From: Chaetoderma sp. LZ-2023a
Taxonomy: Eukaryota; Mollusca; Caudofoveata; Chaetodermatida; Chaetodermatidae
Direction of reading: 5' to 3'
NCBI GenBank assembly: GCA_034401795.1
Contig: CM067367.1
Span: 83,961,314 to 84,025,313, forward strand
DNA length: 64,000 nucleotides
The notes under the pieces were generated by a model that was not told the DNA's origin, made no database searches, and saw only the letters and a list, made by a program, of their open reading frames with translations. Position 1 is the stretch's first letter; each line of letters starts with the position of its first letter. Both the position numbers and the translations under genes were made by a program. This document shows positions 1,383-36,096 of this stretch, piece by piece.

Positions 1383-1482
1383 GTATAATTATCCTGTCAC
1401 TATCATGTCTGCCATGCTGGGCAATTCATCTGAATGCACGTCAATTTCTATTGCTTCTAGGCCAAGATCCAGAGGTCGCGAG
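1383..1482 (+). CDS. MATE exon (first exon in window)
   Basis: The acceptor is ATTTTGTAG and the donor is GAG/GTAAGAG. The exon starts with two bases of a split codon and ends with AG of the next arginine. It encodes a hydrophobic run IILSLSCLPCWAIH followed by LNARQFLLLLGQDPEVA. This corresponds to the human stretch before the fourth transmembrane helix, and the QDPEVAR motif is characteristic of the family. No preceding exon was found in 1-1382. Confidence 0.9.

Positions 1483-36096: not shown

Follow-up and report, generated by a model that had tools for sequence, protein, structure and literature searches.

Fourteen exons of a gene of the expanded SLC47 (MATE) family in the mollusc Chaetoderma, with a putatively modified C-lobe pocket

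The gene at the locus

The window, that is, the whole 64,000-nucleotide stretch analyzed here, corresponds to C9:83961314-84025313 of the 2.44-Gb genome of Chaetoderma sp. LZ-2023a. Its plus strand carries 14 exons of 43-236 bp each, at 1383-36096, which, when joined, read as a single frame of 469 residues and a stop. AG precedes every exon (14/14), each of the 13 exons requiring a donor is followed by GT, and the only stop is the terminal one, which bears out the first-pass annotation, where 14 GT-AG segments of this size range were proposed in one splice phase. These are presumably the same exons, since their count, size range and ends agree, and the estimated span of about 35 kb holds as well. 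Most of them had been described as too short for ORF-length filters; this is general for animal genes and not remarkable. With human MATE1 as the query for tblastn and for our own spliced aligner, exons 1-12 (1383-33469) were returned in order on the plus strand, with AG/GT borders, running phases, and a translation of 349 residues. The helices encoded in the window are, by the topology that we assume, approximately TM3-TM12 of the two-lobed, 12-helix core typical of MATEs. The exons, with residue numbers of human MATE1, are as follows.

Exon 1: 1383-1482, plus strand, residues ~119-151; enters in phase 1, leaves in phase 2
Exon 2: 5327-5369, plus strand, 43 bp, residues ~152-166
Exon 3: 6189-6233, plus strand, 45 bp, residues ~167-181
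Exon 4: 6337-6434, plus strand, residues ~182-213
Exon 5: 7781-7878, plus strand, residues ~214-246
Exon 6: 8711-8824, plus strand, residues ~247-284; TM7, E273 and E278 kept, W274 replaced by I (ATA)
Exon 7: 10198-10265, plus strand, residues ~285-307; Y299 replaced by L, E300 by Q, Y306 kept
Exon 8: 13253-13361, plus strand, residues ~308-343
Exon 9: 26085-26160, plus strand, residues ~344-368
Exon 10: 27568-27637, plus strand, residues ~369-392; the TM10 acid site, 389, is G (GGT)
Exon 11: 29343-29475, plus strand, residues ~393-436; E at 396, A at 397, N412 and Y416 kept
Exon 12: 33375-33469, plus strand, residues ~437-468; Q449 replaced by A
Exon 13: 33939-34065, plus strand, linker of 127 bp; enters in phase 0, leaves in phase 1; weak donor; found through a counterpart of equal length on C1
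Exon 14: 35861-36096, plus strand, terminal exon; TM13-like helix and stop

With exon 12 leaving in phase 0 and the last exon entered in phase 1, a linker exon is required between them. This exon was not recovered by the spliced aligner and was settled only by comparison with a related copy on C1 (see below), which aligns over 155 bp at 78% identity (33935-34087). The acceptor at 33939 and the donor at 34065 enclose 127 bp, the C1 counterpart is also 127 bp long (acceptor 3.7, donor 5.2), and the linker is open in the same frame in both. The last exon shares 51% identity with C1 (1.6e-20), where an AG acceptor lies in the same phase. The TM13 stretch scores 34 versus 20 against the human C-terminus, the best of the 7710 positions kept after removal of windows with a stop or with more than 40% of one residue. 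The extra C-terminal helix, a trait of SLC47 that had been predicted for this gene, is thus encoded, in an exon that is conserved in C1 and joined in frame.

Several alternative pieces were rejected. The aligner pieces at 286-337, 34528-34551, 34900-34968, 35114-35161, and 35488-35536, obtained with the full human query, are spurious; with the same query the last exon came out in two parts, 35861-35874 and 35953-36048, a split superseded by 35861-36096. An ending from a shorter query (33375-33391, 35134-35191, 35711-35721) gave way to the C1-based linker, as did the linker candidates 34528-34614 and 35134-35191, which have no convincing counterpart in C1, the latter lying inside a 133-bp repeat.

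Two donors are weak, after 8824 (-2.2) and after 34065 (-1.2). C1 has borders homologous to both, scoring -2.0 and 5.2, respectively. Exons 1-12 overlap no repeat in a self-comparison of 1-53300, a test that covered these twelve exons.

The introns and the remainder of the window hold a variety of repeats. One is a Tc1-like DNA transposon at 3596-5260, with 28-bp inverted repeats (96% complementary), its end 66 bp away from exon 2, which starts at 5327; the transposase frame (3922-4824, minus strand) has above-cut-off matches to HTH_Tnp_Tc3_2 and DDE_3 and seemingly lacks its N-terminal part. Another is a non-LTR retrotransposon (19975-25500, minus strand), antisense in the 12.7-kb MATE intron, with an ORF1 of 541 residues (CCHC match below cut-off) and an endonuclease/reverse transcriptase frame that has a stop before the zf-RVT part. 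A 31-bp minisatellite adjoining a 120-copy CTA array (10715-11646) is also found inside a MATE intron. Diverged tandem arrays with periods of ~149-157 and 270-309 bp occupy 42862-48770, and a 30-bp minisatellite of ~355 copies extends from 53371 to the window end at 64000, with 337 of 354 spacings exactly 30 bp. The latter is probably not coding, despite long open stretches in several frames: its six most variable positions favor none of the three codon positions, and its longest ORF has no Pfam match. No tRNA or Rfam genes were found in the window. The idea of another MATE copy between 36 and 64 kb was rejected, the best among the matches listed being an 11-residue stretch (E 0.43).

The N-terminal exons

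The first exons of the gene lie outside the window. The first-pass annotation had called the gene complete-looking and colinear with SLC47A1 from about residue 110 to the stop; the colinearity stands, while the similarity begins at residue ~119-121, and the gene is not complete as it appears in the window. For residues 1-118, the best of the full set of 35 matches inside the window has E 2.7, and the piece at 286-337, tried as an N-terminal exon, is without an AG acceptor. In the 90 kb fetched before the window, one exon (L016:1224-1325), located ~8.7 kb upstream, encodes residues 46-79 (E 0.002; AG and GTAAGT borders); its match to Pfam MatE as TM2 (0.0043, 17.2 bits) is below cut-off. The C1 copy has an equivalent of this exon, at 74% identity, and carries two further exons, for residues ~80-118, whose counterparts were not found in the readable sequence of the window gene. 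The last 2,500 bases preceding the window are N, and so the missing exons may lie there. An exon for TM1 was not found in the window or in the upstream sequence examined.

Family identity and related copies

That the gene belongs to MATE/SLC47, as first suggested, is well supported. When the spliced translation was compared with Pfam MatE, the check that had been recommended, the 349 residues of exons 1-12 matched at 3.5e-31 (108.5 bits, cut-off 24.9), and the same translation matches TIGR00797 at 9.6e-56 (189 bits, cut-off 147). Human MATE1 is the best of the 17 PDB sequences matched (phmmer 5.4e-72), ungapped over 121-464, with 127 of 349 residues identical (36.4%). The spliced-alignment score of 636 compares with 154 for the reverse complement, 167 for the reversed protein, and 163-186 for five of five shuffled proteins. 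An eighth run, on 15501-53000, scored 223.5, since this region holds four true exons. In the prokaryote and virus collections, none of the 31 and none of the 7 pattern matches, respectively, was confirmed as a relative.

The family is expanded in this genome, which carries at least seven related copies, the window gene included. Exon-level matches (E up to 10) numbered at least 82, a lower bound because only 100 candidates were scored. Gene-like sets are found at a minimum of six loci outside the window, one on C1 and five on C11 (A-E, their pieces grouped by proximity). Blocks were kept at 40% or higher identity to the window or C1 and others were dropped, and the residues read amount to 349 for C1 and to 199, 259, 240, 316, and 222 for C11 A-E. 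Seven MatE matches are on contigs of the assembly that look bacterial. Six of them are on C18 (L001-L004, L006, and L007; 4762156 bases), with long open frames, one beside a dxs gene, and the seventh, on C2618 (L005; 63250 bases), is a MurJ gene. The GC content of the fetched pieces is 0.32-0.36, and the contigs probably stem from a symbiont or contaminant.

The C1 copy (C1:180994001-181019000; gene set at 180.995-181.017 Mb) is identical to the window protein at 257 of 349 residues (74%), and it shares with it the lengths of all 12 of the first 12 exons, the linker, and the last exon. A tree of this genome's copies and the human protein unites the window and C1 with support of 0.907, one inner node having 0.189. 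By plain identity C1 is closer to C11 B (80% of 259 residues versus 74% of 349), and the claim that the window and C1 are sister copies is therefore a moderate one. Between the two, dN/dS is 0.149/0.693 (NG86) or 0.158/0.543 (YN00), that is, about 0.2-0.3, and the differences by codon position number 63/39/119, suggesting selective maintenance; as an average over the pair, this ratio is no proof that constraint on the window copy persists today.

The substrate pocket and the proton site

In human MATE1, E273, W274, Y277, Y299, Y306, and E389 are close to ligands, and mutation of E273, E389, or W274 abolishes MPP uptake, according to one study (PMC12559748); equivalents of E273, E389, N412, Y416, and Q449 form part of a hydrogen-bond network, according to another (PMC5696359). 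Among the canonical features of proton-coupled eukaryotic MATEs, the window protein has the TM7 glutamate, E273, and lacks the TM10 acid, E389, and the gating tryptophan, W274. Positions 273-274-389 thus read E-I-G in the window, Y-G-D in C1, and E-W-D in five of the five C11 copies. Four further TM7 exons, on C12, C16, C5, and C6, read EW, EW, EW, and EF. Overall, E273 is present in 10 of 11 copies and W274 in 8 of 11, the others having I (window), G (C1), and F (C6); an acid is present at 389 in six of seven copies, D in all six others read, as opposed to the glycine of the window. By their sequences, the window copy and C1 have each lost the tryptophan and a different acid of the pair credited with driving such exporters. 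A single base separates the codon of G389 (GGT) from one for Asp (GAT), and this site alone could therefore be a sequence error; replacement of W274 by I requires TGG to become ATA and is therefore not a single-base error. Visual inspection of one alternative splice register around E389 showed that it runs into a stop. The replacement of Q449 by A is found in all six copies readable at that site and is therefore general to the family in this genome. E396, two helical turns beyond the lost TM10 acid, and A397 are specific to the window among the seven copies, the others having M or Q at 396 and G at 397.

Interpretation

We consider it very probable that the window holds a real, selectively maintained animal SLC47 gene, its 14 exons here encoding approximately TM3-TM12, a linker, a TM13-like helix and a stop, and that it belongs to an expanded family. 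As annotation this is ordinary, a further member of a known, expanded animal MATE family. The assignment to fold and family follows from homology, and the maintenance from dN/dS against C1; what we infer from the residues concerns export, coupling, and substrate. The protein would be a MATE exporter of the alternating-access type whose C-lobe pocket is modified and in which protons, if used, would bind the retained E273, W274 and the TM10 acid being gone, and its substrate range or coupling may differ from those of human MATE1.

Of the three residues on which MPP uptake by the human protein depends, two are replaced, so that proton-coupled cation export is not assured. A possible but doubtful alternative is that this copy is no longer a canonical proton/cation exchanger, and that it acts as a facilitator, is coupled otherwise (through N-lobe acids or Glu 396), or handles another kind of substrate. 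The E-I-G and Y-G-D of the window and C1 next to the invariant E-W-D of C11 speak for it, along with the effects of mutations in human MATE1 (PMC12559748), the example of barley HvAACT1, which is without C-lobe acids and for which use of N-lobe acids has been proposed (PMC12358922), and a dN/dS of about 0.2-0.3. Weighing against it, the replacements W274I, Y299L, E389G, and Q449A bring in no positive charge. In addition, the plant MATE 7dqk also reads E-T-N, and if it is NtMATE2, one acid may do. A broader proposal is similarly doubtful: in two sister SLC47 copies under purifying selection, the MATE proton site may have been taken apart from opposite sides, producing natural half-site transporters, uncoupled or otherwise coupled. 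A recently dead copy that is still in frame is very improbable; the weak donors after 8824 and 34065 and the lost pocket residues would fit it, but the 14 exons are free of premature stops and frameshifts and retain all their splice dinucleotides, and dN/dS is well under 1. The possibility that ORF fragments were strung together at random by a permissive search, which does produce random chains of 23-29 pieces and did produce spurious pieces in the linker region, is rejected on the score of 636 versus at most 186 in seven controls, on the phmmer match to human MATE1 (5.4e-72), and on the exon borders conserved in C1.

Under the favored reading, of a maintained SLC47 gene, the pocket change, predicted from sequence, is worth a test. 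The reciprocal loss of acids in the two sister copies would provide a natural experiment on which of the acids is required for MATE coupling, because the canonical set persists in five relatives within the same genome.

Comparison with known systems

A literature search returned nothing on SLC47 in mollusc or octopus, on its invertebrate expansion, or on MATE in cephalopod, and the accessible part of one survey covering two molluscs reports none found in the pearl oyster (PMC4928094). Among the closest known systems is human MATE1/SLC47A1 (PDB 9r10), with which the window protein shares the ungapped stretch 121-464, the extra C-terminal helix, and E273, Y277, E278, Y306, N412, and Y416, and from which it differs, at 36.4% identity, by W274I, Y299L, E300Q, E389G, and Q449A. 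C1, the sister copy, has Y for E273 and G for W274 and keeps D389, the reverse of the window as to the acids. When five chains (window, human, and three from plants) are compared, the columns in which one chain alone breaks an otherwise invariant position number 10 of 41 for the window, 8 of 39 for 7dqk, 6 of 37 for human, 3 of 34 for 5xjj, and 1 of 32 for 5y50, so that the window is the most divergent of the five chains, but not by much. The plant MATE 7dqk ('Protein DETOXIFICATION'; 32.9% identity to the window over 225 columns) keeps Q449 and G397; like the window, it has E273 and is without W274 and the TM10 acid, and the combination seen in the window is therefore not unique. We take 7dqk to be tobacco NtMATE2. 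In one source, NtMATE2 is counted among the MATEs that use conserved C-lobe acids (PMC12358922), and thus, if 7dqk is indeed NtMATE2, a single acid may do.
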